This document shows, one piece after another, positions 1,903 through 49,392 of a stretch of 64,000 nt of DNA. Every line of letters starts with the position of its first letter. Positions within the stretch are counted from its first letter, which is position 1. Below the pieces are notes generated by a model, which had not been told where the DNA came from, made no database searches, and worked only from the letters and a program-made list of their open reading frames with translations. Both the position numbers and the translations under genes were made by a program. This DNA comes from Hondaea fermentalgiana. Taxonomy: Eukaryota; Sar; Bigyra; Thraustochytrida; Thraustochytriidae. The stretch spans positions 5,956 to 69,955 of the forward strand of contig NPFB01000077.1 of the NCBI GenBank assembly GCA_014084085.1, given 5' to 3'.

Positions 1903-3312
1903 ATGTCCTTTGCCGGCCTGTTCTCGTGGCCGCGTACGGCGCTGCATGAGCCTGAAGACGCGGGAAGGTCCCCCTATACTGCGATTGACAATCTCGAAAG
2001 CGTAAGGACCGGCGGGGTGCTCAAATCATTTTTCGACCTGTTCACTCATGAGCCGGAGCAGTTGAGAATGTACGGCTTCATTGCGGACGGTGATCTCAAC
2101 AGCGTAAAGTCCGCCTTGCAGAGAAACCCCAACTTGCTCAATATGCGCATGACGGCTGCGAATTCTACCCCGCTCATCTTCTCACTTCACAAACGTTCTG
2201 GCGGCCAGCGGCGTATCGCATTGTGGCTCATCGAAAACGGCGCAGACTTAAACCTGCAGAACGACCTTGGTTGGACTGCGCTCATGACTGCGTGCCGCTA
2301 CAATCAGCCCGAAGCGGCGGAGGCGCTTATTAAGCGCCGCGTCGACATCAACTTGCAGAACGATAATGGATGGACCGCTCTTATGTACGCGTGTCGCCAC
2401 AATCAGCCCAACATTGCCAGGATTCTCATTGAATGCGGCGCCATCCTCGATGCGAAAAACAAAGAGGGGTGGACCGCGCTCATGCTCGCATGCCAGCAGC
2501 CAGCAGCAGATTCCGATGGCACCCAGGAGGGTCTACTGAGCTGCATCAAGTTATGCTATGAGGCAGGTGCCAATCTGGACATACGACGATCTGGTGGAAT
2601 CGGCGCGCTGGATACAGCCAGGCACTTCAATCGAAGCGATGCCATCGAGTTTTTGGAGTTTGTGACGGCCTCTGAGGGGGTCGCCAAGGTCCTCTCCGAC
2701 GAGCTGGGGCAGCCTCGGCATCGCGTTGTCGACTTTTACAATGCGTCTTTCCTCCAAATTGAAGACTGTTTGAATCTCACAGACTCGTGTCTCTGTAGAA
2801 TGGGTTTTAACTCGCTCCCAGACCGTCGCAGAATCTTGGAGAGGTTCAATTCCGCATTTGTGTACCACGCTTTTCTCACGCACGACTGGGGCGACGATGA
2901 CTCGAATCACAGACTCGTGAGTTCGATAAACGCGATGCTCCAGGATGCAGGCATTGAAACTTGGTTTGACGGGGAGCGACTTAATGGCAACATACCCCTG
3001 CAGATTATGCGCGGTATTGAGAACTCGCGCAAAGTCGTAGTGTTCATCACTAGGCGATACATGGAGAAAGTTGGCCAGGATAGCAGCGACTATTGCAAAG
3101 ATGAATATCAAGCGGCTGTTAATGTTCTCGGACCAGAGAACATGATACCCGTCGTGGTGGACCCGGAGATGCTTGACACAAGAACATGGACTGGGCTTCT
3201 GCAATACAACCTTGGAAGCTTGCTCTACATTGACTTTACATCACCCGCCAAGCGTGAGGCTAACTTCTCCTTTCTGCTTCAACAAATCAGAGCAACAAAT
3301 CAGAGCAACTAA
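1903..3312 (+). CDS. Ankyrin-repeat / TIR-domain protein
   Basis: Single-exon gene of 469 residues, from the first ATG of the open frame (MSFAGLF) to TAA. Residues about 60-230 contain ankyrin repeats; three consecutive units share the GWTALM.AC core and the NGADLNLQ-type turn. Residues about 322-465 look like a TIR domain: the strand FVYHAFLTHDW, then GIETWFDGERLNG, then SRKVVVFITRRYM, then a CKDEYQAA segment and a VVVDPEM strand. Glu358, in WFDGERL, falls where TIR NADases such as SARM1 carry their catalytic Glu; this is an alignment by eye. Such proteins usually act as intracellular sensors or adaptors, the ankyrin array binding partners and TIR signalling or cleaving NAD+. The ligand and pathway are unknown. 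The gene converges on the RPC7-like gene, with 132 bp between stops. The frame stays open upstream but without an ATG, so 1903 is the best start. Confidence 0.85.
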   Translation: MSFAGLFSWPRTALHEPEDAGRSPYTAIDNLESVRTGGVLKSFFDLFTHEPEQLRMYGFIADGDLNSVKSALQRNPNLLNMRMTAANSTPLIFSLHKRSGGQRRIALWLIENGADLNLQNDLGWTALMTACRYNQPEAAEALIKRRVDINLQNDNGWTALMYACRHNQPNIARILIECGAILDAKNKEGWTALMLACQQPAADSDGTQEGLLSCIKLCYEAGANLDIRRSGGIGALDTARHFNRSDAIEFLEFVTASEGVAKVLSDELGQPRHRVVDFYNASFLQIEDCLNLTDSCLCRMGFNSLPDRRRILERFNSAFVYHAFLTHDWGDDDSNHRLVSSINAMLQDAGIETWFDGERLNGNIPLQIMRGIENSRKVVVFITRRYMEKVGQDSSDYCKDEYQAAVNVLGPENMIPVVVDPEMLDTRTWTGLLQYNLGSLLYIDFTSPAKREANFSFLLQQIRATNQSN

Positions 3313-18875: not shown

Positions 18876-20523
18876 CGGCTCATGCCGCGCCCGCGCAGCC
18901 GCCGCGCGCCGCCGAGTCGCGAGACGAGACTCGACAAGATACCCTTCGCGCGACGCGCGCCTAGCTGGCCCCTAGGGGTCCCTACGGCCGCCTGAGCTCG
19001 CTTCGCTGGCACCCGCCAGCCCGCGCCGCTCCCGGGGAACGGAGGAGGAGGGAAGGGGCAGGGAGGGGGAGGAGAGCCCGCGAGCCGCGCGCTCGCGCTG
19101 GGCGCGCCGCCGGCCTGCGCGCCTCCGCTGCGGCTCCGAGGCGTGCGAAGCGGGGGAGGCGTGCGAAGGGCCGCTGTCTGCGCGTCGAAGGATTTGTCGA
19201 TTGCCAGATTTTTTTCTTCGATTTTCTTTCTTTCGATTTTTTTTTCCGATTTTTGTTTTGGGGGGGTGGTTTTTTTCTCATTCTGGCTGGCCGAGTGGGA
19301 GAAGGACTGACATGAGGACGCCCGGGCGGCGCCCTTTATTTGCGGCACTTGCGGCGCGCCGAGGCGCACTTGCGCGGCGCCATTCCCGACTTGCGGCCGC
19401 GCGCAGAGAGTGCGGCAGCGGGCGGTCGGGGAGAAAGACACAAACCAAGCCGAGGCAGGAACGCCGCATCAATGTGCAAGGCAGGGCAGCGCAGCGCATT
19501 CACAATCATGCTGGCATGCCATGGCGAGCATTCACCATGGTCACTGTCAATTATTCTTCGTCAATCAAGAAGTCAAGCAGTCAAGCAATCATCCATCATT
19601 CAACCGGGGAGATTGTGTCTAACCAAGATGAGCAGCGCTTCGGGCTCGCGAACGCGAACGAAGCCCTCGAGAAGCTCCGAGTCCGCGCAGGCCTCATACT
19701 ATACACATCTGCGCGGAGCCTGGGGAGCGGAGGAATGTATAAACAACAAGGGATGTGTAGCTGTTGCTGCTGCTGCTGCTGCGCTGCTGCTGGGACCTTG
19801 CAGGAGATTTTGATGGAACAGCCGCCAGCACGACGGCGAGAAGTATGTATGAAGGAGGACCTTGAAGGAAGTGCAAGATCCGGCGGGGAAGAGGGAGAAA
19901 TGGCGCGCAGAGTCATGCTTGGGACGACGAGAAGTACTTCGCAGCGTGCCAGGCCTAGGTAGGCTAGCCTGGCCGTACATCCGGATCTTGAAGGCGGGGA
20001 GATGGGACTTGGGCCGAGGACTTTGCCAGATACGTATAGTACTCTGTCGACATGGCTGTCGTGCAAGGGAGGTGACCATGGAATCCAAGTTGACGAGCCG
20101 GAACCTCGCGCGCCTTTAGGAGGATGCAGCACGAAGTCGTCCGGGCCCTGCACAGCCACGATGACAAGAGTGCAGTACATGGTTTTTCCAAGCGTGACAG
20201 GAAAGCATGGGGCATTTCAATGCAGACGCAACGACTGCTATAATTCTCTCGCCCCCTTTCTTTCCTTCTTTCCCGTCCCATTTTCTCCCCCACTCGGACA
20301 CAATCACTGCCAACTTACCCAACAGATCATACATGGCATTGAGAGCTTGCGTAAAGCAGTGTTGTCCAGCACAAGCCGCAGAGCAATGATGAGGACTAAC
20401 GTGAAGAACAAGAAAAGACAAAAAGAGAAGGAGGCTCTTGGTAAAAACAAGCCATCAAGGAAAGCTTGAAAGCGATCAACAAGTTTGTCGCCACTCTCGG
20501 CGATAAAAACGAATACTTGGTGC
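18876..20523. other. Intergenic region upstream of the USP gene
   Basis: 1.65 kb between the USP start and the RLP24 stop; no gene I can support. Next to the USP ATG it is very GC-rich. T-rich patches follow at about 19206-19275. Two copies of CACTTGCG lie at 19346-19353 and 19367-19374, with a close match at 19389. A CTG triplet run sits at about 19764-19793. Open frames here lack an ATG or any recognisable domain. Confidence 0.45.
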
Positions 20524-25756: not shown

Positions 25757-26893
25757 AATTCCAAGGGGAAACAATACCATATGCGTCTCAGTTTCGCCTC
25801 TTGGACCTACGAATTGCCAAGAAATTCTCGCATCCATTCTTGCCGAAATGATGCTCGGTGATTTCTTCATCAATTCAAATTATTGTGTACGCATCCCTCC
25901 TTGCTCGACGAGAAACTTTGCTGTGCGTCTAGAGAGCAAAGGGCGAACAGCTGACGCGACCCGGTTAAAAAAAAAACGGCTTGACTCTGCTACAGATCAT
26001 ATGAGTAGCTTTTTGAATGGACAGCCAGAACAAAGAGACTGATATGGCACAGCTGGCCAGTCGCCGATTTGAAATTTTTTTGAATCAGTTTGTTTTTTTG
26101 TTGCCGAGACTGAAAATTCTCCTTACGCACTCGAACCAAACCACATAATCCACGCAACGGTAAGAGTGCCTAACGTCGTGAGGCGAATACAGTCAGAATC
26201 ACAGTAATGTAATTTTGGGCACATACACAACGATGCGCCAAGGCGTTTGGCACGCGACCGACCAATACCTTCCGATTAGTACATCAGAGCAAATCATTCT
26301 CTTTTATTCTTTCTTTCCTATTGCCCAAAGCCCTCGGCTATGTGAACGACCTTGGCGCCACAACTGTCATCCATTGGACGGGCCGCCGAAGAACTCAAAG
26401 TGCGCCCTCTCCATCGTCGTGCGTGGTCGCGGTCGCGGCCGCTGAGAGAACAAGTAACATCAACGACCACGCCGCGAGTCGCATCCACTGCAACTACGTC
26501 GTAATCGCGATCATGACCACGGTTCATGCGGTGGATGCAGACTTTTTGATCGCCCTCTTGTCTCCCACATACCTCCCGAGAGCCCGCACCACTACTACGC
26601 TGGACTTGCTGACATGTGAGGCGGGTTATTCTCGAGAATCAGGCTGATTCTTCTGTACTACTAGTTGTAGAAGAAGAAGGGCCAGCACGTGCCGTCGCAC
26701 CTTTCTTGTGCAGCTGCAGACTCCAAACACGTCGCCGCGCGTGCATCAGTGCCCTCCTCATCCTCTTCCTCGCCGTGCGTACGTCGTGAGGCTCGCCTCG
26801 GGTCTCTCCTCGTGCAGCGCCCCTCCGTCCCCGAAGCCTCTTGCCTTTCTCCGAGCGAGAGTTCGAGCGAGCGTAGACGGCTTGTTTGAAGAG
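25757..26893. other. Intergenic region before the TPR gene
   Basis: 1.1 kb without a supportable gene. The first part is JMJD7 3' flank, with A-runs at about 25966-25976 and T-runs near 26075-26100. The second part leads into the TPR gene and is open in the same frame from about 26708, but without an ATG before 26894, so it is read as 5' UTR. Confidence 0.45.
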
Positions 26894-29398
26894 ATGCCCA
26901 AAGGCAAGTCGCTCCGCGCGAGCTTGTCGCGCTTGAGCTTTACGCGTAAGAAGGATGAAGAGATATTATCCAAGGAGGCGCGTAAGATCATCGACCCACG
27001 CAGCATTTCTCTGCGCGCCATCAAGGAACTCCGCGACGAGGTGCTCAGCGGAGAGGCCGCCCAAGGCGTTGAGCTGTATGTGGCCAAGCGCGACCTCTCG
27101 GACAAAGTCCAAGAAGGCGCCACCATCCAGGTCCTGCGCACGAAGCCCGATGGCAAGTTACAAGGCTTCGTGCCCTACGTCGGCAGACCCATCACCTTTG
27201 AACCCGGAGAGGACGCCGATCGTAAGCTACGCCAAGACTGGAGCACAGAAGACGTTGCCGAGTACGTCGTTCTCGCCTTGACCAACAAATCTCCCCAGGC
27301 GCAGTTCTATCTCGATCATATCAACGAAGAGGACATTAGTCCAGACTTTCAAGGTACTTTCGTGAGCCAAGCGCGCAAGTGCCGCTTCCAGGACCTCGTC
27401 GCAGCGCTCGAGGACCATTTCGGCCAAGACGCCGACGCGGCCTTTGTCTGGCTTGACCTCTTTTGCGCGAACCAGCCTCTGCTCACCAGTGTAGATGAAG
27501 CACTGTCTCCCGACGTGATTCTTGCGCGGAACCAGTATCTGACGCACGGGCTGCATCGGGCAATCGGCCGATTCGGAAGCGCGGTCATCTTCTTTGACCG
27601 CTGGGACGTGCCCGCACCTCTCCAGCGTGCGTGGTGCGTATGGGAGATCATGGGCGCCATTGCACAGGCGCAGAGCTTCCAGGTCGTCTTTGCGCCTGGA
27701 CAAGAGCAGGCTTTTATCGAGGCACTGCTTGAAGATGTTGATGAATTGGCCAAGATCCTGGCTGACAACAACAACATGCGCAACGCAAAGTGCTGGAAAG
27801 ACGAAGACAAGAAGATGATTGACAAGGCCGTCGAGACGACTGTGGACGGTGGATACGTGACGCTGATCAAAGAGGTGAACCAGCGCTTGCATGCATGGCG
27901 ACTGCAAATGGCGCGAGACGCAGTATCGGAAGCTCGCAATGGTGGTGGAGATCCAGGGAAGCTTGCCGACATTCTTCGTTGCACCGGTGTACTTTTGAGT
28001 GATCAGAGCAATTATGATGAAGCATTGCAGATGCTCGAGGAAGCGCTATCGATTCGCAAGAAAAGTCTTAGCGACCGGCATCCGAATGTGGCGACCATAC
28101 TCAACAGCATCGCCAATGTGTATGCCGACCAAGGCCGTTACGAGGAGGCCTTGGCGTACCACGAGGAATCGCTGTCGATTCGCAAGGAATGTCTTGGTGA
28201 CCGGCATCCCGATGTGGCTTCCACGCTCAACAACATCGCTCTTGTGTATGACTCACAAGGCCGCTACGAGGAGGCCTTGGCGAACTACGAGGAAGCGCTG
28301 TCGATAAGAAGAGAAAGTCTTGGCGAGCGGCATCCCGATGTAGCGGGCACACTTGGCAACATCGCTGGTGTGTACTATTCACAAGGCCGCTACGAGGAGA
28401 CCTTGGCGTACTACGAGGAAGCGCTGTCGATCCGCAAGGAAACTTTTGGCGACCGGCATCCCGATGTGGCGAACACGCTCAACAAAATCGCCAATGTGTG
28501 CTTCTCACAAGGCCGCTATGAGGAAGGCTTGGCATACTACGAGGAAGCGCTGACGATTAAGAAGGAAAGTCTTGGCGACTGGCATCCCTCAGTGGCGGGC
28601 ACGCTCAACAACATCGCTACTGTGTACGAAGCACAAGGCCGCTATGAGGAGGCCTTGGCATACTACGAGGAAGCGCTGACGATGTTTAAGGAATGTTTTG
28701 GCGACCGGCATCCCGATGTGGCGAGCACGTTCAACAACATTGCTGTTGTGTACAAAAAACAAGGCCGCTACGAGGAGGCCTTGGCGTACTCCGAGGTAGC
28801 GCTGTCGATAAAGAAGGAAAGTCTTGGCGACCGGCATTCCTCAGTGGCTTCCACGCTCAACAACATCGCTGGTGTGTACTACTCACAAGGCCGCTACGAG
28901 GAGGCCTTGGCGTACTACGAGGAAGCGCTGTCGATCTTAAAGAACAGTCTTGGCGACCGGCATCCCCATGTGGCGGGAATGCTCAACAACATTGCTGTTG
29001 TATACATAGCACAAGGCCGCTATGAGGAAGGCTTGGCATACTACGAGGAAGCGCTGACGATTTTTAAGGAATGTCTTGGCGACCGGCATCCCAGTGTGGC
29101 TCAAACGCTCAACAACATTGCTGTTGTGTACAAAGAACAAGGCCGCTATGAGGAGGCCTTGGCGTACTACGAGGACGCGCTGTCGATAAGAAAGGAAAGT
29201 CTTGGCGAGCGGCATCCCGATGTAGCGGCCACACTTGGCAACATCGCTGGTGTGTACTATTCACAAGGCCGCTACGAGGAGACCTTGGCGTACTACGAGG
29301 AAGCGCTGTCGATCTTAAAGGAAAGTCTTGACGACAGGCATCCTTATGTGTCTCGGACGCAAAGGAATATCGAACGCGTTCACAGAACGATTCGGTGA
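26894..29398 (+). CDS. TPR-array protein with TIR/HET-like N-terminal domain
   Basis: Intronless, 834 residues, starting at the first ATG (MPKGKSLRAS). After a basic leader, residues about 115-330 form an alpha/beta domain with FVWLDLFCANQ (about 184-194) and LQRAWCVWEI (about 243-252). This pairing occurs in many uncharacterised algal and oomycete-type signalling proteins and recalls TIR or HET domains. From about residue 370 to the end there are nearly eleven 42-residue tetratricopeptide repeats of the kinesin-light-chain/NPHP3 kind, consensus YEEALAYYEEALSI then RKESLGDRHPDVA then TLNNIAxVYxxQGR. They should form a superhelical protein-binding scaffold. It is not a kinesin light chain, since the heptad coiled coil is absent. 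Repeats are highly similar in DNA. The role is unknown; a sensor-plus-scaffold function is inference. Confidence 0.82.
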   Translation: MPKGKSLRASLSRLSFTRKKDEEILSKEARKIIDPRSISLRAIKELRDEVLSGEAAQGVELYVAKRDLSDKVQEGATIQVLRTKPDGKLQGFVPYVGRPITFEPGEDADRKLRQDWSTEDVAEYVVLALTNKSPQAQFYLDHINEEDISPDFQGTFVSQARKCRFQDLVAALEDHFGQDADAAFVWLDLFCANQPLLTSVDEALSPDVILARNQYLTHGLHRAIGRFGSAVIFFDRWDVPAPLQRAWCVWEIMGAIAQAQSFQVVFAPGQEQAFIEALLEDVDELAKILADNNNMRNAKCWKDEDKKMIDKAVETTVDGGYVTLIKEVNQRLHAWRLQMARDAVSEARNGGGDPGKLADILRCTGVLLSDQSNYDEALQMLEEALSIRKKSLSDRHPNVATILNSIANVYADQGRYEEALAYHEESLSIRKECLGDRHPDVASTLNNIALVYDSQGRYEEALANYEEALSIRRESLGERHPDVAGTLGNIAGVYYSQGRYEETLAYYEEALSIRKETFGDRHPDVANTLNKIANVCFSQGRYEEGLAYYEEALTIKKESLGDWHPSVAGTLNNIATVYEAQGRYEEALAYYEEALTMFKECFGDRHPDVASTFNNIAVVYKKQGRYEEALAYSEVALSIKKESLGDRHSSVASTLNNIAGVYYSQGRYEEALAYYEEALSILKNSLGDRHPHVAGMLNNIAVVYIAQGRYEEGLAYYEEALTIFKECLGDRHPSVAQTLNNIAVVYKEQGRYEEALAYYEDALSIRKESLGERHPDVAATLGNIAGVYYSQGRYEETLAYYEEALSILKESLDDRHPYVSRTQRNIERVHRTIR
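28009..29392 (+). repeat. Tandem 126-bp coding repeats (about 11 TPR units)
   Basis: About eleven units of 126 bp, all in frame. The block at about 28305-28432 is nearly identical to 29187-29314, an offset of 882 bp, exactly seven units. This suggests recent unequal exchange or gene conversion within the array. Confidence 0.85.
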
Positions 29399-33726: not shown

Positions 33727-34090
33727 GCATGAGGCAGCGAGTGTGTCAGAGAAAAAGTGTAAATAAATCCGTTGGAACCTGAGCTGACTCAGCGTTGCCC
33801 TTCCTCTATGACATGCGCACATTGTAGTGCTACCTTACAGCACAGCACACCACGGCACAGTCTGACTGTGAAGGCGAAGTCTTTATTTTTAAAGTGTAAC
33901 GTTCACTTCCATCTCGGCCACCCTTGCTGTAGTGGTGACGCAATAAGTGTCCGACATTGCGAGACGCAGCAGCTTGCCCAAGCCGAGCAATCAGTCCCTT
34001 AACGCGTGACTCCCTTTACGACATTTTTGTTGGCGCTGGCTGTCGTCTCTCTTGCGTTGTTGTTCACATCGATCTGGTGCGAAATAGAGG
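33431..34090. other. Spacer with TC dinucleotide microsatellite
   Basis: 660 bp between the sulfotransferase-like stop and the first ABCG start. It contains a pure TC run at 33671-33723, about 26 units. Nothing else is recognised; the last 100 bases are the likely ABCG 5' UTR. Confidence 0.6.
33671..33723. repeat. (TC)n microsatellite
   Basis: Uninterrupted TC dinucleotide run of about 53 bases. It is a polypyrimidine tract able to form triplex DNA, and a likely length-polymorphic marker. Confidence 0.95.
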
Positions 34091-35899
34091 ATGGCGTCGC
34101 AAAAGGTGTCGCCCGAGCCCGATGAGCTCCCTGTGCTCGTGCTGGAGCTGCGCAACTTGTCACGTGATGTCAAAGTGCCAGGAAAGGGATTCAGACGCGA
34201 GTCGAAGCGTATTCTGCACAACTTCAACGCGAGATTCACATCCGGTGAGCTATGTGCCGTCATGGGCGGCAGCGGAGGGGGAAAGAGCTCCTTGCTGTCA
34301 GAGATTGCCAAGGGGAGTGATGCCATGCGTCTGAATGGGCAACCGCTTCCGCAGCGCTACCGCGACGCAGTGTGCGTAATTCCGCAAGCCGACATTCTCT
34401 TTCCTGCGCTCACACCGCGACAGTCACTTCGATACAGTGCGATGCTTCGCCTGCCCTCGAGCGCGCCCGCCAGCCAAATCGAAGAAGTGGTGGACCGCCT
34501 CATCTCCGATCTCAGTCTCACCAAGTGCAAAGACACCCCCGTCGGAGATGAGAACCGTCGTGGAGTAAGCGGCGGAGAGCGCAAACGCGTGTCTATCGGC
34601 ACAGAATTGGTCGTGAATCCTAGCATTCTTCTCGTCGACGAGCCGTCTTCGGGTCTGGACTCAACCACGGCCGAGGGTGTGGTCGAACTTTTGCGAAGGC
34701 TGGCCAAAGAGCACGGGCAAATGGTGATTTGCACCATTCACCAGCCGAGCTACAAGCTCTTTTGCTCCTTTGACAAGCTGCTCTTGCTGCATCATGGCCG
34801 CGTCGTTTACAATGGACGTACGCAACAGCCGCTCCATGATTACTTTATCTCGATTGGATTCAAGTCTCCCGAGTTCGAGAATCCTCTTGACTACTACATG
34901 CGCGTGCTGCAGGAGCGGGAGGAAGAGGACCAAGACTTTTTTGCCAACAAATGGGCAGAGCTCGACGATGCAAAGCGAGAGGCTCTTGACACCCCACGAC
35001 ATCCCACGGCGAGTGCGTCAGGTGTCTCCGAAGCGGCAATGGCAAAGATGACGGCGCGGAACTCGTGGATGCATCAGTTCACAACCTTGCTCCGGCGCTT
35101 CTTTCAAGATACACTTCGAGACAAGACGAAATTCGCGCAAAATCTCATGCTAAAGCTCATGACAGGAACAATGCTTGGCATCGTCTTTGTGAATCAGGCA
35201 CGCGAGACATCGCTGGACTCTGCTTTTGAGCGCACATCGCCTCTTTTCTTTCTGGTCATTTCGGGAATTCTCGATACTGCGTTTGCCGCGATCTTAGTTC
35301 TTCCGTTGACGCGCCCGCTCCTCGTTCGAGAGTACCGTAACGGAGCGTACTCTGTGTCGTCGTTGTTCGCGGCACAGATCTGTACAAGCCTGTTTTTTGA
35401 CCCGCTGTCGAGTCTAGCATACTCTGTCGCAATTCCTATCGTTGGATTGTACCCTTCCGTGGACCAGTTCCTCAAATATCTCTTGGTGAGCATGGTAATG
35501 ACTGCGTTTGGCTCTGCTCTAGGTCTCATGCTGGGAAGTACAAGCAAAGATGTCATGGAGGCACAGAACAAGCTCGTACCCGTCTTGATGCCGCTGCTTC
35601 TTTTTTGCGGTTTCTTGATCCGGCGCGACAAGATTCCAATCTACTTTCGCTGGCTGTACTATGTGAGCCCCTTCCAATGGTCTCTGTCGGCGCTCCTCGT
35701 GGCTGAATTCGAGCCATTGGAACTCGTTGATGCAAGCGGAAATGTAGTCACGGGTTCCATGTACCTTGCCGGCCTCGGGCTCGAAGTTGATGAGTACTGG
35801 CGCGACATCGGCGTTTTGGGGGGTCTGACATTGGCCATGTTTCTCTTCGCATTCATTAACGTGCGCATTGCCATCCACAAGCAGGCCAAGGATAATTGA
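34091..35899 (+). CDS. ABCG-type half-transporter, copy 1
   Basis: Intronless, 602 residues from ATG (MASQKVSPEP). An N-terminal ABC ATPase domain carries Walker A GGSGGGKSS (Lys65), signature VSGGERKRVSIG, Walker B ILLVDEPSSGLD (Asp183, Glu184) and the H-loop CTIHQPSYKLF. NPLDYYM marks the linker of ABCG proteins. From about residue 325 an ABC2-type membrane domain has six hydrophobic segments, with the usual long loop near the end. Order NBD-TMD and length are those of a half-size ABCG (White/ABCG2) exporter, which works as a dimer. Substrate cannot be inferred. The protein is very close to copy 2 at 47422; N-termini differ most. Convergent with the LRR-kinase gene (211 bp between stops). 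Confidence 0.93.
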   Translation: MASQKVSPEPDELPVLVLELRNLSRDVKVPGKGFRRESKRILHNFNARFTSGELCAVMGGSGGGKSSLLSEIAKGSDAMRLNGQPLPQRYRDAVCVIPQADILFPALTPRQSLRYSAMLRLPSSAPASQIEEVVDRLISDLSLTKCKDTPVGDENRRGVSGGERKRVSIGTELVVNPSILLVDEPSSGLDSTTAEGVVELLRRLAKEHGQMVICTIHQPSYKLFCSFDKLLLLHHGRVVYNGRTQQPLHDYFISIGFKSPEFENPLDYYMRVLQEREEEDQDFFANKWAELDDAKREALDTPRHPTASASGVSEAAMAKMTARNSWMHQFTTLLRRFFQDTLRDKTKFAQNLMLKLMTGTMLGIVFVNQARETSLDSAFERTSPLFFLVISGILDTAFAAILVLPLTRPLLVREYRNGAYSVSSLFAAQICTSLFFDPLSSLAYSVAIPIVGLYPSVDQFLKYLLVSMVMTAFGSALGLMLGSTSKDVMEAQNKLVPVLMPLLLFCGFLIRRDKIPIYFRWLYYVSPFQWSLSALLVAEFEPLELVDASGNVVTGSMYLAGLGLEVDEYWRDIGVLGGLTLAMFLFAFINVRIAIHKQAKDN

Positions 35900-36110: not shown

Positions 36111-39100
36111 TCATAGTTGCGAACGTCGGAGCTTGGCCGCGCGAGAGCAAAGCTCATCGATAAGCGCGGGCTGCTCATGACCGACCATGTACACTCCATC
36201 TCTCACTTCCGCATCTGTCCTCCACGCTAAAAGCTCGAGATGATCAAAGAGCCTGCTTTGCACCTCTTGGCTGCATGTGCCAACGTGTTCCGCATCAGCA
36301 GCATTAAAAGTACTTTCATCGGCCACCGCCAAAAGAGGAAGCCCACTCAGGCGTTCGCTTGTCAAGGCATCGTGAACATCGCCGAGACAATCTTGCTCCA
36401 GCACGACGATAACCACGGATGAACCCTCGTGAATGGCATCTTGAAATAGACTTGCCAGGACGCTAGCAGTTGCGTTCATGTTGAGCTTGGCGACAAGCTC
36501 TATTGCAATTTCCGAATCTGACTTCGCTACAACCGTGATGAAGAGAGGATCTGCCACTAGGTTCAGCAATGGACGAAGCGGTGGACTTACCTGAAAGCCC
36601 GCATGATCAGCGAGCGCTCTTAGCATTGCACCCTCCTCAAAAAGACGTCGGCGATACGGAATGCGCTTGCAAAGGGACAGAGCATCTTCTGCGAGGCCAA
36701 AGACTTCGTCCGGGTCAAAGTTGAGGTTTTCGAGAGTCTCACGAAGCTGACGCGTATCCCGCGTGCGACGAAGAGATCTCGCCTTTGCCGTAGCTTCATC
36801 GAGCTGCTTGCGTCGAGATGAAGTTTGCTCGGAGTTGTACTGTGTCTGGCATGAGCGAAGGAAATCACCTGCGCTTGCGATTTCGTCATCAAGGTCGACA
36901 TTGCCTTCTTCCCAGTCCACGGCATACCACGGCTCGTCAATGCCCGTGTGCCAGGGGCTGAAGCGCTGGTCTTCTTCTACAATAAAGATAATGTGCTCTT
37001 GCAGCCCACCAGGCATGCTGGAAAAGTAGTCAATGGCGAACTTAAGTCCTGCAAGACAAAAAGGGCGGAACAGTGCATCTCTCGTCAGCACCAAAACAAA
37101 GCGTTGCGAAGAAAGCACACCTCGCTGGAGACTTGCAAGAGTTACCTCGGCAGCACGCATCTCCGTCCAAGCCGACATCTGGTATCGCTCAAGGCCAAAC
37201 GCAAGATTCTTGACGATTCCTGCTGCCTGTTTTTGCATGTGCGACAGGAAAAAGTGGTACGTGGAAAGCTCGGTCAGCTCATTGTGCCCATGATCCGCGT
37301 AAAAGTCGCCTGTGTGATCGTCTCTCGAAAGCCTGGGACTTGTTGTGCGACCAAAAAGACTAAAACGTCTCGGAACGACCAGCTTGTGGAGACTCAACAC
37401 CCGACGCGAAAAGCGCATCTTCTTTTTGCGATGTTCGTCGCGCCCAGCCCCGCTCGTAGCGACGTCCTCGTCGTTGTCCGGTCTGCATGAGTTTTGCGGC
37501 CGCATGAAATCGAAAAAAGGATGATCCTCGATGATTTGCGTCATGGTGATGCGCTCCGTAGGGTCGCCGCGTAAGCAAAGCCGAACGAGGTCGCGAGCGG
37601 CCTCGATGGCATCAGCTCCATCTGGTCTCAGACCGTCACCTTTGCCCATGCCATTGGTTTCGCGTTCTTTAATGCGCTCAAGGCGTTCATCGTCAAGAGC
37701 AAGCCAGTTCATGAGCTCTGTCTTATCCCGGCCATGCACCAGGTTATCGTCAGATTCATCGACCATGAAAAGCTTGGTCCCGGAGAGCATTTGATAGAGA
37801 ACGACGCCAAAGCCCCAGACGTCCAAGGCCGCACTGACAGTGGGGGCCTTGTCCGCGCGGGCTTGGTGAAGAAAGTGCCATTGTGCCAGCTCGGGAGCTG
37901 CATACCCGGTGCTTACCTTTTCCGTGACTCTCTGTGTGTTCAGAATCCGAGCCGAGGCGTCAAGGTCAATGAGCTGCCACTCCTCGTCGGGCGGACCATT
38001 GAGCTGCTCCCCTGTCACGTTCTGCCGCCACGCATCGGGTACCTGGACCCGGCCGCCCGTCTCATCATAAGAGAACGTGTGTTGCTTCGAGGGAACCACA
38101 CGCACAGCGTTGCGCGGCTTGATGTCGCCATGGATACGCCCGCTGTTGTGGAGATCTTGGATGGCCAACGCGATTTTGTACGCGATCGTGCGAACTTTTT
38201 GCAAGTCTCGTCCTGCAAAGCGCTCTGTGTTGATGGCTTCGAAAAGCGAACGAGAGCCTTGCGGCATGACCAGACATTGCTCATCATCGAGACGCGCAGC
38301 AAAGTCGGGATCTTCGCGGTGTAGAAGCGGCAAGCAGCCCGCAAGTGACGCCCCTCCTTCACTTGAGATGTCGCGCGCAGAAATCTCACGGGCATATTGC
38401 TCTTTGTCACGCATGATTTTAAGCGCCACCGCCTTGTTAGTCTGGATGTCGGTTGCATAGTGCACCGCGCAAGTCTTGGACTCGTGAACGGGGGGGCCTT
38501 TCGCGACACTGTAGCGATCAAGATAGGTGCCATAGGTTTTGGCCCACTCTTTTGTATTCTGGTTGGTCAATGCAAGTGAACGAACGCTCCGTCCACCGCT
38601 GTCCTCGGCCTCCATCATGAGTAGCCCATCTCTGAGAAGCAAGCGCTTAGCAATAATTTCCTCGCAAAAGCGCTGTTGAAGGGAGAAATGCGTTGTCGTC
38701 TGATGGCAGTCAAAAAGCGCATGAACCAACGGAAGTTTATTCTCCTCATCCGCAAACATCGTGCCTTCGTATGCGTCGCTCACGCCGACTTGAAGCCACA
38801 GCTCGTGGTCAGCAAAGAGAGAGTGCATCTCCGGATCCTCCTTGTCGAGGACGAGAACAAAGGTTGCAAAGATATGCGCATTGGTTCTTGCCAATGTATG
38901 TGCGAGCTGAGTCCATTGACCTGTTTCTGCGTCAAAAAGGCTATGGCGAATTCGCTGCACTCGCACGTCGCCTCGCTGCAAAGAGAAGAGCTCGTCCCAG
39001 CTCAGGTCTTGGGGAAGTTCAGGCAGGCCTCTAACGCGAGATGTGATGGTCAGCATGGAAGACAAACAAGGTGCGCCTGAATGACTAGTAAACGTACCCA

Positions 39101-42100
39101 ACAGTAGCCAAGCTGTTTTTGTGAAGGAGAAGTAACTCCGCCACCGCAGCGATACCTGGGGGGCTCATCTTGTTGAACCCGAAGCTGCGCATGATAATCG
39201 GAGCGACACAGCAAGGAAACGTTAGTATCTATTCTCGCACTACCGTCGTCGTCTGTTCAAGTTATCCTATCTTCGTCACTCTTGTCTACTCGGACTTGGA
39301 TCCACTTTTTGCATACACCCTTGCGGACAGTCAACGTACGAGAATTCCAAAAGGGAGCTGTGCTTGCCAACGCCGCGTCCGAGCGCAACAGCGCCCTCAT
39401 AGCCAATTTCATTGAACTCGAGCCTGTGCGTATGGGTTGCGTGACAAGGCGCGCGGAATGTCAGTGTCTATTCTGTTGCCATGGCGGCTGCTATGGCCTT
39501 CGTGCTTTCCCGCCATGATGTCCTCCGTCGTTGCCACCTTCCTGGCATCGCATGTAGATCCTCAAACTCACATTAGTACTTGGAGCGATGTGTTTCTAGC
39601 CAACTTCTTTCCTAGCTCCACAGCACCCTCGGTACCGAGTTTATTGTCCGAGAGACTACGCACAATTCGCGCGAAGAGTGTTCAATGTCAGCGCTTGACC
39701 TTCATTTCCTGGCACCACCTGCACGCCGCAATGAACTGCGACTTTCAGCCCCAGCTTACCTGAGAGAGATGAGCGACTTGTTCTTGGCCAGTCCATCTGC
39801 GAGGGCAACAGCTCCATCAGCGCCAATCAGGTTCGCAGTAAGGCTTATTCATTGTGAAATTTGTGGTCATGATCTGTCAGAACAAGTTTCTCCTGCACGC
39901 CATTGCTCTCATACTTACTCTAATGAGGTCAACGACTTGTTCTTGCCCAAACCCTCCCCGAGCCCAGCAGCACCCAGGTCGCCGATTGCGTTGACGGAAA
40001 GACTGCGTATTTGCGGTAGTAATGGTGAGCGCGAAGGGTCAGTGTCTTTCCGATGTTTTTCTTTGACACGCGCACGAGTGCATGGCAATAATGGCCGCCC
40101 ACGTGCATCAATTTATGCCGATTTCTGACCAGAATTAGAGTGCAACTTACTTTAAGTCCGTGAGCGAGTTGTTTTTGGCCAAACCTTTTCCGAGCTCAAT
40201 GGCGCCCTCGTCCCCGATCTCGTTTCTGTAGAGCCTGTGAGTGCGAACAAACGATGGAAAATGGCGTTGCGCACGCAGAATGTCAGTCGCTATTCATGAC
40301 CAGAGGTTTGGCACCCACTCCTCCTTTTAATCTTAATAAAAGTATGAACTCGAAAAGGTCGAGCTTGGGACTTACTTTAATATGTTCAGCGAGTTGTTCT
40401 GGGCCAAGCCTCTCCCGAGCCCGACAGCACCGTCGTCGCCGATGTCGTTAGACTCCAGTCTGCTCACATCCAGCGAATGTTAGGTAAAAGAATCGTCAGT
40501 GTTGGGTTTCAGGCCCTTCCCTCCATGTGATTATGTCCTCTTTGCTTTCCTGTAATGCATACAGAGCGATCCAGGCTATGGAGGAGGATAATCACGCTCA
40601 ACTTACGTCAAGGTCGACAGCGTTTTGCTCTTCGCAAGAGCTTTCCCGAGCGCAGCAGCGCCCGCATCGCCGATCTGGTTCATAGAAAGACTGGGTACGA
40701 AATTCCGGGCAGCGAAAGCGGAATGTCAGTGCCGCCCACCACCTTGCTGACTTTTCATCCTTTTATAAATCTTGCGCTCGAGCGCTCTTGCCGCTCTTTT
40801 GTCCACCACCACGAACCACACCACCACCCGCCACGCATCCGGACTTCCTTCCTTTTTGGTGGCACCTCAGGGTGGCAGCTAGGGCAAGCGCAGACGAAAA
40901 CGTACCCCAACGAGCTAAGCGAGTTGCTCTCGCCAACGCCTTCTCCAATTGCAACAGCACCTTTGTTTGCAATGGCATTTGTTTGAAGACTGTGCGTGAT
41001 CATCAGTGCGTGGTGAGCTCTATGGCTGCCCTACATGTGGGCGTTCCAGTGTGCTCTCTATTCGGTCTTATTCGCGGAAACCCAATTGCTAACTTACTTC
41101 AATTCCTTGAGCGAGGTATTCTTACCCAAGGCTTTTCCGAGGCCAACAGCACCCTCGTCGCCAATCTGGTTCCGGCTCAAGCTATGTTGATGCGTTGTAG
41201 TAACGACCAAGAAGAGTGTCAGTTTTCCAACGTCAGCAGAACGCCTTTATCTTATCACCAACACACCGACTTTATGCCAATGCACGCGCATTTGAGCCGC
41301 AGGGCACTCGGACATTCGCAACCAACTTACTCCAGCGACGCAAGAGACTTGCTCTGGCTCAAGCCTTCCCCGAGTCCAAAAGCTCCCGAGGCGTCAATGG
41401 TGTTGCGCTCCAAACTGTATGTCGACTCGCGTGCATTGAGTCAGTCAAGACTCTCATTTCGTTGTGCATCCACGCAGACTGCATTGCATGAACTCTCAAT
41501 TGGAACATTTCCGACTCGAATGACTCAGCATCCAACGTACTTTAGACTCGCGAGCGAAGGATGCTCGCTCAATGCTTGTCCGAGCGCCTGAGCACCTGCA
41601 GCGCCGACTTTGTTGAGGGCAAGCCTGCGCATGAGTAGAGACGAAAGCAAGGCTCGCGAATCATCAGTTTAGCTTCATTCTTGCCTGGCCTCATGTGGAT
41701 GAAAGAATTCATTCACGATTTCGTTGCTGCCGCACTTTTGTGTGTACTCGCATCTATCACGCTGATTCCATGCCTTTCATTTGCGATGACAACGTACTCG
41801 AGAACTTTGAGTGAGTTGTTCTTGCCAAGGCCTTCTGCAAGCCCAGCAGCGCCAACACTGTCAACTCGGCAGCCACAAAGACTGTGTAATGAGCTCGAAG
41901 CGTCAGTACTCTTCCTTGCAGGCAGCTCATCTCTCTCCTCTTGCCTTTTCTTTGCCCTCTTCCAACAGTTTTTGCTCATTGCCCTTGTCGCGTGCGCACA
42001 AGACAAGATTTTTCGGACGCTTGAACTCACTTCAACTCCTTGAGTGAGCTGTTCCTGCTCAATCCTTTGCCAATACCAACCGCGCCCTCATTGCTGATGG

Positions 42101-44202
42101 GATTGGACTCAAGACTGCGCACAACGATTGCGATGATGACCAATAGATGTAAGAGTCTGCTCAGATGATGCCAACGACGCCAGCGTATGCGCTATCTTGC
42201 ATCTGTACATGCCATTTGCATAATCCTTGTTGAAACTTACTCTAGCAAGCATAGCGATTTGTTGGCACCCAAACCTTCACCGAGTCCTGCTGCCCCCAAA
42301 GCGCCAATGTCGTTCGATCGAAGGCTGTGCAAGATATATTGTGGCAGTGAACATAATGCGTGAGTGTTTATTCTCGAAGACGCATTCATTTACCTCGACG
42401 CGTGCACGTGTGTTATCGAGGTCTCACTATCTCTAGTGAGGAACTTCAACACGAGTCGACTCTTTCCAAACTCACTTTAACGATGTCAGCGACGTCATTT
42501 CGCCCAGGGCTTCCCCGAGCACAATTGCGCCTTCGTTGCCGATGTTGTTCTTACGCAGACTGAGCATAGCCAACGCGGCGATGAGCGCAGAAAGTCAATA
42601 TTCCGTGGACAATAAGGCTCTTCTTCCAACATGGATGAGGCGACCCACTTACACTATCTCCTTGAGGAATTTGCTCTTGCACAGCAAGTCTGCGATTGAT
42701 TGGCATCCAACCACGCTGACGTCGGAAGCCTGGAGACTGTGCATTTTTCGTTTCGGGAGATGATGAACAAGGAGCGTTAAGAATACTTCTGTTTTTGAAT
42801 CATTTCGTGGCCTACAAACGCCCCGAGCAGCTGTTGCGATTGTGGCACATTCACAGGAGCTTTTGCACGACCAAAAACTTACTTGAGCGTCGCGAGCTTC
42901 GCATCTGGCGCAAGAGTCTTTGCGAGCGCCAGAGCATACTCGTCGCCGCTGGAATCCCGGCGAAAGGTCGAGCCTCCTAGACTGCGGTTTGTGAAGTTAT
43001 GGAGAGCAGACTCTGTTAGTGTTCGAGCAACTGTAGCCCCGACGTTGTCATTTTACTCGCAGAAACTTGTAGCACGAAATCAAGCCTTTGGTATTGCAAT
43101 AAAGAGAGAGGAAGAAATGACCAGCTTGGCATGTGCAACCACGCCTCGAAGTTCCGATTGCGATAGCTAATTTGCGAACGAAGCCTGACTCACCTTAACT
43201 TTCTGAGCGTGGTGTTTACGTTCAGCGCTTTTGCGAGCGCAGTGAGGCCCGCCTTCCCGAGGTTGTTGCATTCAAGTCTGCGTTTATATGTGCAGTGCAA
43301 GCGACATATTAGTCCACGACTCCTTTCGCTGCAACTTGATCGTTCATAGCGGCTTTTATGCATGCCAATGTCGTCGGAGACCTTCAGAGGCTGATCGAAC
43401 TTACGAAAGCGAGGTAAGAGTGCTATTCTGGCGAAGTGCTTCGGCCAGAGCCTCACTGCCCTCTTCGCATATTTCGTTGTTTTCAAGACTGATGATCAAT
43501 GGTGATTGTCGAATGTTAGACTTTGTTCTTGGGTCGTTGTTATGTTTCGCCTTTTGCCCACGGGGGAGCCGAATGCAACACTAAACAAAAATAGCCTTTG
43601 AGCATCACAAAAAAGGAGGATGACGAAGATTGCAACGTACCCAAGCGTAAGGAGTGAGGTGTTCTTGCCCAGCTCTTTTCCGAGAGCCATGGCGCCCTCG
43701 TCGCCAATGGTACGATCAGTGAGACTGCGCATCGTTTCATGGATGAGAAGACAAAGTCAGCATTGCAAATTAATTTCAAGTCAGATGGGGATTCTGTGAA
43801 AATTGGAAATAATGTAACGTACATGATCTCTTTGACGCCGATCTGCATCAACTCGATTGCTCTCACCGTTGCGTCCAGTCCGAAAAGTCCTCCCTCGACC
43901 ACTTTTGAGGATGCCTCATCTTCATTGTCAGCTTGATCGCTATCGCCGTCGCCATCGTCCTTTTCCTCTTCGTCCTCGTCTCGACCTTCTTCTTCGTCGT
44001 CGTCGTCGTCGTCGTCGTCTTCGTTGTACGGGTTCTCCTCCATTTGAGAACCGTGATCGTCAGGAATGTCATTGACCTCAACCATTTCGGATTCGTTGGA
44101 TGCGGTATCGTCTTCTTCGGCCACCCCGGGCGCGGAAGAAGGCGTCCGATCAGCACGCTGGGCGCAAGACGCCAGTTTCATACGCGCAGAAAACTTCCTC
44201 AT
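36111..44202 (-). CDS. LRR - protein kinase - TIR-like receptor protein (23 exons)
   Basis: Exon 1 (43823-44202) encodes an acidic N-terminus from ATG. Then come 21 LRR exons: 43641-43724, 43405-43488, 43194-43277, 42883-42981, 42653-42736, 42476-42559, 42241-42324, 42031-42114, 41798-41881, 41542-41625, 41331-41414, 41098-41181, 40906-40989, 40607-40690, 40376-40459, 40151-40234, 39919-40002, 39760-39843, 39572-39655, 39340-39423, 39098-39184. The final exon is 36111-39030. All introns are phase 2, starting GTAAG, GTACG or GTGAG. The joined frame gives about 1,693 residues. LRRs (about 127-720) are of the 28-residue ribonuclease-inhibitor type (LxxNxIGDEGAxALGxGL). Kinase: VALKIM Lys925, HGDIKPRN Asp1023, DLD Asp1076, AAPEL. 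The TIR-like domain starts near 1313 (YHFFLSH) with Glu1344 in AWTEM. The last junction is inferred; otherwise the kinase part is a separate gene from ATG 39056. Confidence 0.8.
39098..43724 (-). repeat. Array of 21 one-repeat LRR exons
   Basis: Nineteen exons of exactly 84 nt, one of 99 and one of 87, all symmetric phase 2-2, each coding one LRR. Introns within the array are 75-215 nt. Many have a CTGAC branch-site-like motif upstream of the acceptor, often as CTGACATTC. Exons can be added, lost or skipped without shifting the frame. Confidence 0.92.
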
Positions 44203-45325: not shown

Positions 45326-47421
45326 TTATAAAACAGTTCTATGTTGGCTGTTTGCAAGCGTGGCAAGGGCCCGCGTGTACACAATGAAGTAACTCCGCTT
45401 CATCGTCCAAGATCGTATGTTTGTTGCGGGAGGCTGATGTTTACAAGGATCAACAACAGCTTGTCCAAGACGAGATTCGAATCACTTTCGCCCCCATGTG
45501 CATCAGGGCATCGAGATGACATGAGCGCATGGCTGTATCGCAAATAAGTGCTTGCCAAGTGTCAATGGTACACGATGTCATAAGATTGGTTCGAAATCAA
45601 GCAACTAGATGCACAAGGACCACACTCGACGTCTTGTGCAAACGCCGGGCCTAGGGTCTACTTACAGCTTGCCCTTTTACTATATAAGATGCAGTTTTCG
45701 CGAACGCACACAGAATGGTGTTCTCCTCTTCGCAGAACGAGACCGATACGATCCTTTGTCGCGAACACTCACTTTCAGCCAGCAGATTTTTGCATCTCCT
45801 TTCACCGAGATCAGCTGCAGCACGGCCGCTTCGCAATCGTCTCCTTGCCGCTTCTCCACCTGGCTAGAGCCCGCCCACAAAGCGTCCTCGTGCGCGCTCC
45901 TCGCAGCATCTCTCTCCATTGCCATCGCCATCCTCATCCCATTCTCTTTCATCATCATCATCATCAACAACAACAACAACAACAACAACTTAATCATCCC
46001 CATCCATCATCCCCATCACCATCGCTATTGCAGCCTGCTGCTGGCTGCGAAATCGGTGACCACTCACTCCCAGCTCGCGCCCCCGGACCGTCCCGCGCCC
46101 CTCTGTCCGCCGTCGTGCGCCCCTGCCCCACAGCTGTGTGTTCTCGCGCGTCACGTGTCGGTCCCTCTTCAAGCTCGAAATGCGACCTGCCACTGCCGCT
46201 GCACGGATGCCGCCTCGGTGCCAACGCGTCAGCGCGCGGGGCGTCATCGCCGCGCAGCAGCCGCCTCAGCCGGAGAGCCTGCAGCAGCTGCAGCTGCAGC
46301 AGCTGCAGCAGCTGCAGCAGTTGGTTGGCCGTGTGTCACGGTGGCAGTCGCGCGGCGCACCGTGAGCAAATCGTCCCCCCTGACCAGTGGCTGCCGGTGG
46401 TTAGGTAGGTATATGTATACGCTGGCAGTAGCCATGGAGACGCGCGAAGAGCTCGAAAGCCGCTGCCTCCGGTCCATGCGCATGCGTGCCGCGCGCGTGC
46501 GCCAGTCTGCAACCCGGCGGACGCGGCCGCCTTGGCGCGTCTGGAGGGGGCCAGCTGCAGCTGCAGGGGCGGCGGCGGTTTCTTTCCTACATCTTGAATG
46601 GCCGGCTGCGCGGCACGAAGTTTGGGTTTTTGGAAAAGGGCCAGGGCGGGCCTAGCGTCGGCCTAGCTGACTCCTAGCGGCGCCGACCTTCTCCCGACTC
46701 AGGTGCCGGGAGCGATCCCGAGACTTGCCTTTGCACTTGCTCTTGCTTGCAGCGCGACATCCGCCCTGCCGCGAGATCGATTGGAGTTGCGACAGACAGG
46801 TCGGTCGGAGGTGGGCGGGAATCGCGCCTTCTGTCAGCGCAGCCGCGAAAGACGGCGTTGCAGCGCTGCCGCCGCTGCCGCGGATCGGTCGAGGATCGTT
46901 TCGATGTTCGCGTCATTAGACCGACCGAGTGACGACCGGGGTACGCTGCGAGTCTCCCCGCTCATTCTGCGCCGCCGCTCCTCCTCGTCCCCGTCTCCGG
47001 TCCCGCGTCGCAAGCTTCTCCCGTGCACCCTACCGGCGCCGACGCCCGTGGAGGTCGTGCGAGCATGAGGGGGTAATCTGCGAGTGCGGAGACAGACGTT
47101 CGCGGAGAGACGCAGCGCGCCCCCGGGCGTCGATGGCGCGCGACGCACAGAAGGAAGGAAGGAAGGAAGGCAGGAGGAACCGGGGGGAGAAGAAAAAGAA
47201 AGTTACTGCGCATAATGAGCGGTCTCGGGAGAGAGGCGTTGACTGCCCCGCGGTCGTTCACTGTTCGCCGCCGCAGCCGCGCGCAGGAGGGCGCGGCAAA
47301 CCCGCAACGCAGCGAGCCCGTGCGAGAGCCCCGTGCGAGAGCCCCGTGCGAGAGCCCCGTGCGCGCGCGCGGAGACTGCGAGCGAGAGCGAGAGCAAGAG
47401 CGAGAGGAAGCCGCGGGCGCG

Positions 47422-49392
47422 ATGCTGGGCATCAAGCCGGAGAGCGAGGGCGAGGAGGCCGCGCAGACGACGACGACGACGTCGACGACGAACATGCCGG
47501 CCGAGGAGGAACGCGCCGAGTCGTCGGCATCGGGGGAGACCGTGGACCTGGAGAAGGGCGACACGGAAGCCGCCGTCGCCGAGGAGGTGCAGCAGATGCC
47601 GAGGCAGACGACGACGAGCTTCCCCGAGTTCATGATGGAGCTGCGCGATATGAACCGCGACGTCAAGATTAAGAAGGGCATGTGCAAGTACGCAGACAAG
47701 CGCATTTTGTACGGCATTAACGCCAGGTTCGTCTCTGGCGAACTGTGCGCACTCATGGGCCCCAGTGGCGCCGGTAAGAGTTCACTTCTCGCAACGCTGC
47801 AGAACGGCAACGAGGCCATGTTCCTCAATGGCCAGCCGCTGCCCAAGCAGTACTCGCAAATGGTGTGCGTGATCCCGCAGGCCGACATTCTCTTTCCCGC
47901 GCTGACGCCGCGTCAGGCGCTGCGCTACAGCGCGGTGCTCAAGCTGCCGGAGTCGACGAGTTCAGAAGAGGTGGAGGCCGTCGTGGACCGCCTGATCAAG
48001 GACCTGGCCCTGAACAAGTGCAAGGACACGCCCGTCGGAGACGAGAACCGTCGCGGCGTGAGTGGTGGTGAGCGCAAGCGCGTGTCTATTGGCACCGAGC
48101 TCGTGACGAACCCGAGCATTCTGCTCGTAGATGAGCCCTCGTCTGGCCTCGATTCGACGACCGCCGAGGGTGTCGTAGAGCTTTTGCGGCGCCTGGCCAA
48201 GGAGAACGGCCAGATGGTTATTTGCACAATCCATCAGCCAAGCTACAAGCTCTTTACCTCGTTCGACAAACTGCTCATGCTGCATCACGGCCGCGTCGTG
48301 TACAACGGGCAGGCGCAGCAGCCGCTCCACGACTACTTTAACTCGATTGGGTTCAAGTCGCCCGCTTTCGAGAACCCGCTCGACTACTACATGCGAGAAC
48401 TCCAGGCCCGCGACGAGGAAGATCTCCAATTTTTCGCCGACAAATGGGCGGCCCTGGACGATGCTACGCGCGAGAACCTCGACACGTCCAAGCATAACAA
48501 GGTGGCCGGCGCTGGCGTGTCTGCGGAGCAGCTCGAGAGCATCACGGCCAAGAACGGGTGGTGGCACCAGTTCACGACGCTTTACAAGCGTTTTTTCGAG
48601 GATACGGTTCGCGACAAGGAAAAGTTTCTGCAAATGTTCTTCATGAAGCTGGCCATTGGCGCACTGCTTGGTGTGGTCTTTATCAACCAGGCGCGCAAGG
48701 ACTCGGTAAGCTCGGCGTTTACGTCCACCTCACCGCTCTTCTTTCTGGTTATTTCGGCTGTCTTTGACACGGCTTTCGCCTCGATTCTCGTGATTCCGCT
48801 TACGCGCCCGCTGCTTGTGCGCGAGTTCCGCAACGGCGCCTACACTGTTTCTGCGCTTTTCACGGCGCAGGTGATTAACAACTTGCTCTTTGACATGCTT
48901 AGTAGCGTGGCGTACTCTGTTGCGGTCCCCATTGTGGGTCTTTACCCGTCTGCGCGCCAGTACTTTTTGTACCTGTTTGGCACGATGCTCATTACTGCTT
49001 TTGGTTCCGCCTTGGGTCTCATGCTCGGCAGCACGAGCAAGAACGTGCAGGATGCGCAGAGCAAGATGATTCCAGTGGTGATGCCTCTTTTGCTCTTTTG
49101 CGGATTTCTCATTCCATACTCGGAGATCCCGTACTACTTTACCTGGCTTTACTGGCTGAGTCCGTTTCAGTATGCGCTCAGCGGTCTTCTCATTGTTGAG
49201 TTTGAGCCGCGCACTCTGGTTCAAGCGGACGGCTCGACGATTTCTGGTGAAGAGTACTTGCAGCTGCAGGAGCTGGATGCCGACGACCTTTGGCAAAAGT
49301 TTGGCATTCTCATTGCTCTCGATGCCTTCGTCTACATCATCTCGTACATTAGCATCCGCATGTCCATTCACAAGCAGGCTAAGAGCACCTGA
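47422..49392 (+). CDS. ABCG-type half-transporter, copy 2
   Basis: Intronless, 656 residues from ATG (MLGIKPESEG). An earlier in-frame ATG at 47215 would give 725, adding an Arg/Pro/Glu-rich stretch made by a 13-bp repeat (about 47321-47360); I take that as 5' UTR. After an acidic, Thr-rich leader come Walker A GPSGAGKSS (Lys119), VSGGERKRVSIG, ILLVDEPSSGLD and CTIHQPSYKLF. NPLDYYM and an ABC2-type membrane domain with about six spanning segments follow. The NBD is almost identical to copy 1; linker and loops differ more. Copy 1 has Gly-rich GGSGGGKSS where copy 2 keeps the common GPSGAGKSS. Predicted ABCG exporter working as homo- or heterodimer; the two copies could be partners. Substrate unknown. 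Confidence 0.93.
   Translation: MLGIKPESEGEEAAQTTTTTSTTNMPAEEERAESSASGETVDLEKGDTEAAVAEEVQQMPRQTTTSFPEFMMELRDMNRDVKIKKGMCKYADKRILYGINARFVSGELCALMGPSGAGKSSLLATLQNGNEAMFLNGQPLPKQYSQMVCVIPQADILFPALTPRQALRYSAVLKLPESTSSEEVEAVVDRLIKDLALNKCKDTPVGDENRRGVSGGERKRVSIGTELVTNPSILLVDEPSSGLDSTTAEGVVELLRRLAKENGQMVICTIHQPSYKLFTSFDKLLMLHHGRVVYNGQAQQPLHDYFNSIGFKSPAFENPLDYYMRELQARDEEDLQFFADKWAALDDATRENLDTSKHNKVAGAGVSAEQLESITAKNGWWHQFTTLYKRFFEDTVRDKEKFLQMFFMKLAIGALLGVVFINQARKDSVSSAFTSTSPLFFLVISAVFDTAFASILVIPLTRPLLVREFRNGAYTVSALFTAQVINNLLFDMLSSVAYSVAVPIVGLYPSARQYFLYLFGTMLITAFGSALGLMLGSTSKNVQDAQSKMIPVVMPLLLFCGFLIPYSEIPYYFTWLYWLSPFQYALSGLLIVEFEPRTLVQADGSTISGEEYLQLQELDADDLWQKFGILIALDAFVYIISYISIRMSIHKQAKST

Follow-up and report, generated by a model that had tools for sequence, protein, structure and literature searches.

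A predicted leucine-rich repeat, kinase and TIR receptor-like gene with one repeat per exon in the thraustochytrid Hondaea fermentalgiana

Proteins that join leucine-rich repeats (LRRs), a protein kinase domain and a TIR domain in one chain have been described in choanoflagellates, where the 'Kinase TLRs' consist of LRR, transmembrane, Pkinase, and TIR regions, and where the 'Kinase TIRs' consist of a kinase fused directly to a TIR without a transmembrane segment (Richter et al. 2018, PMC6040629). Within the data set of that paper, both architectures were confined to choanoflagellates. In this study, we analyzed a 64,000-nucleotide stretch of DNA (contig NPFB01000077.1, positions 5,956 to 69,955; hereafter the window) from Hondaea fermentalgiana (Stramenopiles, Labyrinthulomycetes), in which a minus-strand gene is predicted to encode LRRs, then a kinase, and then a TIR. 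The initial annotation of this gene knew of no described family with this domain order, a view that the published Kinase TLRs do not support. The Hondaea protein is like the Kinase TLRs in combining LRR, Pkinase, and TIR, in that order, within a single chain; unlike these TLR-like proteins, it has no visible transmembrane segment between LRR and kinase (by hydropathy), has NLR-type LRRs encoded in modular exons together with an extra C-terminal domain, and belongs to a stramenopile. It also resembles the Kinase TIRs, in architecture only, in combining Pkinase and TIR without a transmembrane segment. The RIPK2-like LRR-TIR-Kinase proteins reported from lancelets (PMC11747288) contain the same three kinds of domain in one chain; however, those are animal RIPK2 homologs, and in the architecture as named there, the TIR precedes the kinase.

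With regard to exon structure, the closest described genes are the brown-algal ROCO genes, in which each LRR is encoded by one 72-bp phase-2 exon, and for which exon shuffling, alternative splicing, and positively selected sites have been reported (Teng et al. 2024, PMC11378527). Like the Hondaea gene, these candidate immune receptors are from stramenopiles and carry one LRR per phase-2 exon; unlike it, they have 72-bp rather than 84-nt exons, another LRR consensus, and, as described in that paper, Roc-COR without kinase or TIR. When the joined Hondaea protein was searched with Pfam at E 0.001, neither the Roc-COR tandem of LRRK/ROCO proteins nor the NB-ARC of plant TIR-NLRs (TNLs) was found, and no death domain of the IRAK/Pelle type was listed, although a divergent one could escape this search. 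In contrast to plant TNLs and animal NLRs (NOD2), the protein has neither NB-ARC nor NACHT among its Pfam matches, and its LRRs come first with the kinase in mid-chain. Plant LRR receptor kinases differ in having the signal peptide and transmembrane segment that were not visible here by hydropathy (highest 19-residue mean 1.41, located inside the TIR; best N-terminal 10-mer 0.46), an absence already noted in the initial annotation. The TIR fold is shared with SARM1 and the bacterial TIR NADases; unlike these, the window copy carries Gly where the catalytic residue is presumed to lie, a position at which most relatives have Glu. Among the open-licence literature matches listed, none reported LRR-kinase-TIR genes of thraustochytrids.

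One predicted gene from LRR exons to TIR

When the 23 predicted exons were joined across 22 introns (22/22 GT..AG), a reading frame of 5,082 nt was obtained that encodes 1,693 residues and has its sole stop at the end. The initial proposal of 21 LRR exons followed by a kinase-TIR exon in one 5,082-nt frame was thus rebuilt, and the joined protein reads K, D, and D at the proposed Lys925, Asp1023, and Asp1076. A Pfam search of the joined protein gave LRR_6 (200.5 bits), Pkinase (74.4 bits), and TIR_2 at 22.6 bits, below its cut-off of 28. Nineteen of the LRR exons are 84 nt long; the remaining two (99 nt, 42981-42883, and 87 nt, 39184-39098) were read by eye and then checked in the joined frame. 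When the whole window was scanned for LRR exons of phase 2 and 81-93 nt (phase 2 is therefore by construction), 19 were found on the minus strand, as many as this gene has by itself, and 0 on the plus strand. No LRR exon was found when the LRR region was shuffled 50 times in blocks of two bases. Applied to six family genes, the same scan returned 64 LRR exons, of which 62 measure exactly 84 nt; the opposite strands gave 0. Moreover, the NCBI protein P0001, which has 98% identity to the window gene over 94% of the query, is a 1,075-aa model in which LRRs are also joined to the kinase, with fewer repeats and a later acceptor. By eye, the N-terminus of protein P0006 is acidic like that of exon 1, and then reads AIDLMRNGVKTIDLTDRKIGDE.

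The joint at which the LRR array meets the kinase exon was compared in the six genes with readable LRR and kinase exons (the window gene, C161, C217, C162, C13, and C221); C218 was left out because its contig ends nearby. In 6/6 genes the LRR array closes on a phase-2 donor, and a possible phase-2 acceptor directly precedes a shared short motif (GLPELP, GFPELP, GLPEDY, DTPDIP, GMPDIP, or GLQRLP). In C161 and C217, the junction was measured from an earlier donor; an extra last half-repeat exon, resembling the 87-nt exon of the window gene, is visible in their sequences and yields short introns. In the C221 copy, many introns measure 60-77 nt, so that the 67-nt junction intron of the window gene is not unusual. 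Two neighboring genes, one containing only LRRs and ending at the TAG in 39077-39097, the other encoding kinase and TIR from the ATG at 39056, are suggested by the TAG that the LRR frame meets soon past its last LRR exon, by the in-frame ATG of the kinase open reading frame (ORF), and by the NCBI models P0003 and P0005, which begin at or close to the kinase exon. In addition, the junction acceptors were picked from 3 to 10 possible ones per gene, the choice being the acceptor directly before the related stretch. However, the phase-2 donor and acceptor pattern recurs in all six genes, the ATG falls within the junction intron, and C161 has no Met at that place. Furthermore, LRR, kinase, and TIR lie in one uninterrupted frame at three Hondaea loci, C106 (1,313 aa), C9 (1,570 aa), and C183 (1,277 aa). 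In P0009, the C106 protein, LRR_6, Pkinase, and TIR_2 are all over the Pfam cut-offs; in C9 (26.6 bits) and C183 (22.9 bits), TIR_2 is below 28. The same three domains are each over cut-off in P0010 and P0019, which we take to be from other organisms because their linker-kinase regions are 75% and 61% identical, respectively, to that of P0009. Given this junction conservation and these uninterrupted frames, the two-gene model was rejected as highly improbable, and we are nearly certain that the predicted minus-strand exons belong to one gene encoding one protein, with LRR, then kinase, then TIR (Table 1).

Table 1. Predicted features of the LRR-kinase-TIR gene, in window coordinates
Feature	Position	Strand	Basis
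Exon 1: start codon, acidic low-complexity N-terminus, first-repeat start (GVKEI)	43823..44202	-	open frame, GTACGT donor
21 LRR exons, one repeat per exon, phase-2 introns throughout	39098..43724	-	exon scan, joined frame, LRR_6
Junction intron between LRR array and kinase exon, 67 nt	39031..39097	-	GTACGT..GTTAG; CTGAC 23 nt before end
Last exon: helical linker, kinase, TIR, C-terminal domain, stop	36111..39030	-	reading frame, C161 paralog
Protein kinase domain, residues 910-1226 of 1693	37515..38465	-	Pkinase 74.4 bits
TIR domain, long helical insertion before last strand (crop residues 20-248)	36591..37277	-	family profile, AlphaFold model
Gly1382 codon, TIR column of presumed catalytic Glu	37047..37049	-	family alignment
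C-terminal alpha/beta domain after TIR, kept in relatives	36114..36569	-	strand-helix pattern, two models

Kinase and TIR domains

The window kinase carries the Lys, HxD Asp, and DxG-type Asp by which active kinases are recognized in sequence: a VAIK-type Lys925, Asp1023 in HGD, and Asp1076 in a third motif that is DLD, not DFG. It is predicted to be a non-RD kinase, the HxD motif lacking Arg in 18/18 family rows.

The TIR region almost certainly adopts a TIR fold, as judged from a family profile and a structure model. When the family profile was compared with the PDB, 20 sequences matched at E 0.1 or better, and every one was a TIR protein. The AlphaFold model of the region matched the TIRs of RUN1 and SARM1 in a second, closer fold comparison; the raw Foldseek ranks of a 407-residue model, in which TIR matches were mixed with unrelated ones (e.g. 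a SIS domain), were not relied on. Both kinds of support sought for the TIR of the initial annotation, profile and structure, were therefore found. A six-frame genome search listed the window TIR as over cut-off with 28.0 bits for TIR_2; it was absent from the matches of PF01582, an older TIR model. Several results weigh against this assignment: the window TIR was below the Pfam TIR_2 cut-off in two scans, the precomputed database domains of P0001 include no TIR, and a single-sequence PDB search with the window TIR gave only two weak matches, both non-TIR. Because Pfam alone and the single-sequence search were too weak, the TIR was called on the basis of the family profile together with the model.

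In the family alignment, Glu occupies the column of Gly1382 in 14 of the 15 other readable rows, and P0013 has Lys. The absence of the presumed catalytic Glu from the window copy was overlooked in the initial annotation, as were the family paralogs. Among the exon-rich genes with an unbroken TIR (C161, C13, C217, C162, C218, and the window gene), the window gene also has the lowest TIR_2 score. From these residues, it is quite likely that NADase activity has been lost in the window copy, whose TIR probably serves in assembly or regulation rather than as an enzyme.

For the domain that follows the TIR, a profile search gave no PDB match at E 5. The fold comparison barely covered it, since almost none of the TIR rows there extend into this domain. 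It shows an alpha/beta pattern, but a tandem second TIR gained no support: in the profile-profile comparison with TIR1, the alignment was limited to the last helix, and the PDB profile search was without a match.

The gene family and its genomic setting

When the kinase-TIR exon was compared with the Hondaea genome, 25 matches were obtained, which were grouped into 11 loci with the kinase region, one of which is the window gene, and five weaker or partial matches. The closest paralog, C161, aligns with query residues 1-979 of 981 at 61% identity. When the same exon was used to search for homologous proteins, 18 were returned, and other regions used as queries added P0019, P0020, and P0021. P0009 carries the NCBI name 'Protein NLRC3'; P0021 has kinase and TIR_2 matches and no LRR match; P0011 has kinase and ankyrin matches, with a TIR-like stretch seen in the alignment only. 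In P0020, a protein from a JGI source, a TIR of the same style as the family is fused to NB-ARC. In a kinase tree of 18 rows, several of them long-branched, nine Hondaea rows including the window gene formed one group (support 97/96), and C106, P0010, and P0019 formed another (support 100/99). From this tree, the single-exon form appears to be common to different organisms, and the exon-rich form to be Hondaea's own in this sample. A search for viral relatives gave 76 stretches that matched a pattern, none of which was confirmed. Among prokaryote genomes, the best 80 of 111 candidates matched only residues 290-726 of P0019, ahead of its TIR; because the matches stop there, no prokaryotic fusion was found among those 80.

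At least 74 places in the Hondaea genome match TIR_2 at E 0.01, and 68 of these are over cut-off (matches, not genes); for a unicellular eukaryote, this is a large TIR repertoire. A six-frame search of the same genome gave no NB-ARC match at E 0.001 and eight NACHT matches. Of 20 fetched TIR loci, 10 were scanned, in frames cut off at the locus ends: eight have COR-A and TIR, one has ankyrin and TIR, and one has TIR only. At C75, a frame of 1,448 aa (L144:401-4747, minus strand) contains LRR_6, Roc, COR-A (below cut-off), and TIR_2; no LRR exons were found upstream of two other ROCO-TIR loci. Since the genome has this LRR-Roc-COR-TIR frame as well as LRR-kinase-TIR genes, the same types of sensor and effector appear with two different middles.

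Within the window, a second TIR gene (1654-3309, plus strand) encodes an ankyrin-repeat protein with a C-terminal TIR (TIR_2 55.3 bits). A pair of similar ABC half-transporter-like ORFs, recognized by eye (34088-35899 and 47077-49392, both plus strand), lies on either side of the LRR-kinase-TIR gene, which is thus placed as if between two duplicates. A 916-residue ORF (26648-29395, plus strand) contains many TPR repeats, and its N-terminal FVWLDLFCANQ-like region is unnamed in the best 25 of 39 Pfam rows. A 3,481-residue open frame (8526-18971, minus strand) includes zinc-finger and ubiquitin-hydrolase-like sequence by eye.

Proposed function and competing explanations

According to sequence and models, one frame contains an LRR array of the NLR/RNase-inhibitor type, followed by a helical linker, a non-RD kinase, a TIR, and an alpha/beta domain, and this composition supports a cytosolic sensor-switch-effector chain. 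We moderately favor the reading that the window protein is a cytosolic receptor-like LRR sensor with output via its non-RD kinase and TIR assembly. The initial annotation had called it an intracellular sensor; the cytosolic part agrees with the lack of a visible membrane segment, and sensing is part of the following model. The LRR arm would keep the protein inactive until it binds either a ligand or a guarded host protein; such binding would free the kinase and allow TIR domains to assemble. In relatives with Glu, the TIR would then cleave NAD or make a nucleotide signal. Since the window TIR is probably non-enzymatic, the protein would signal via its kinase or by joining catalytic paralogs in mixed assemblies. 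Ligand, LRR inhibition, TIR assembly, and output are modeled on NLR, SARM1, and receptor-kinase systems. Lastly, because the array has one repeat per exon in the same phase, repeats can in principle be gained, lost, or skipped in frame, which would diversify recognition.

Other explanations of the same gene were weighed against this receptor-like reading, and some of the data count against it. The window copy could be decaying, given the broken family copies (two of the 11 loci, C14 with TAG and TAA and C221 with TAA); a transcribed decay product or decoy that has lost its signaling output would also account for Gly1382 and for the lowest TIR_2 score. However, the frame is intact over 23 exons with all splice sites canonical, and kinase and TIR are constrained in comparison with C161, although that comparison covers a shared past and is unable to date a recent loss; we consider decay unlikely. 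It is quite doubtful that the exon array is a substrate of somatic or alternative-splice diversification producing many receptor forms per gene. Almost all of the scanned exons share one length and the phase imposed by the scan, so that any subset stays in frame, and the brown-algal ROCO arrays are reported to be alternatively spliced (PMC11378527); against this, the exon pairs are of old origin, the best reaching 74% nucleotide identity, and the introns of the window gene are dissimilar (0/231 pairs at E 0.001), so that there is no sign of recent exon copying. Introners or recent exon copying were rejected on the same 231 intron pairs. Variability at the LRR positions assigned to the concave face only slightly exceeds that at the helix positions, which counts against the receptor-like reading. 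An immune role rests on analogy, and the chance that the protein senses microbes or viruses appears about even. Signaling of another sort, e.g. in development, stress, or cell-cell recognition of self, is a less probable though appreciable option: axonemal and RanGAP1-complex entries are also among those matched by the P0019 LRR fold, and the brown-algal ROCO genes are reported to respond to other stresses too (PMC11378527). Nevertheless, the combination of NLR-type LRRs with a non-RD kinase and a TIR, the expanded set of paralogs, and the modular exons are reminiscent of immune receptors, by analogy only.

More broadly, we tentatively suggest that thraustochytrids may have evolved a TIR-receptor system of their own that is cytosolic and lacks NB-ARC. 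Its central switch, placed between an NLR-type LRR sensor and a TIR effector, would have been swapped, with a Roc-COR GTPase in one branch and a non-RD kinase in the other, and the kinase branch of Hondaea would have expanded with modular, frame-neutral LRR exons, mixing NAD-cleaving members with a Glu-less partner or regulator. The predicted gene extends the LRR-kinase-TIR combination beyond choanoflagellates to stramenopiles and, by hydropathy, to the cytosol, in a group of marine microbes reported to be infected by viruses (PMC4512727). The presence of LRR-kinase-TIR beside LRR-Roc-COR-TIR in one genome offers a natural comparison of switches that share the same types of sensor and effector, and the locus may serve as a test case for exon-modular LRR arrays as a general stramenopile route to receptor diversity.

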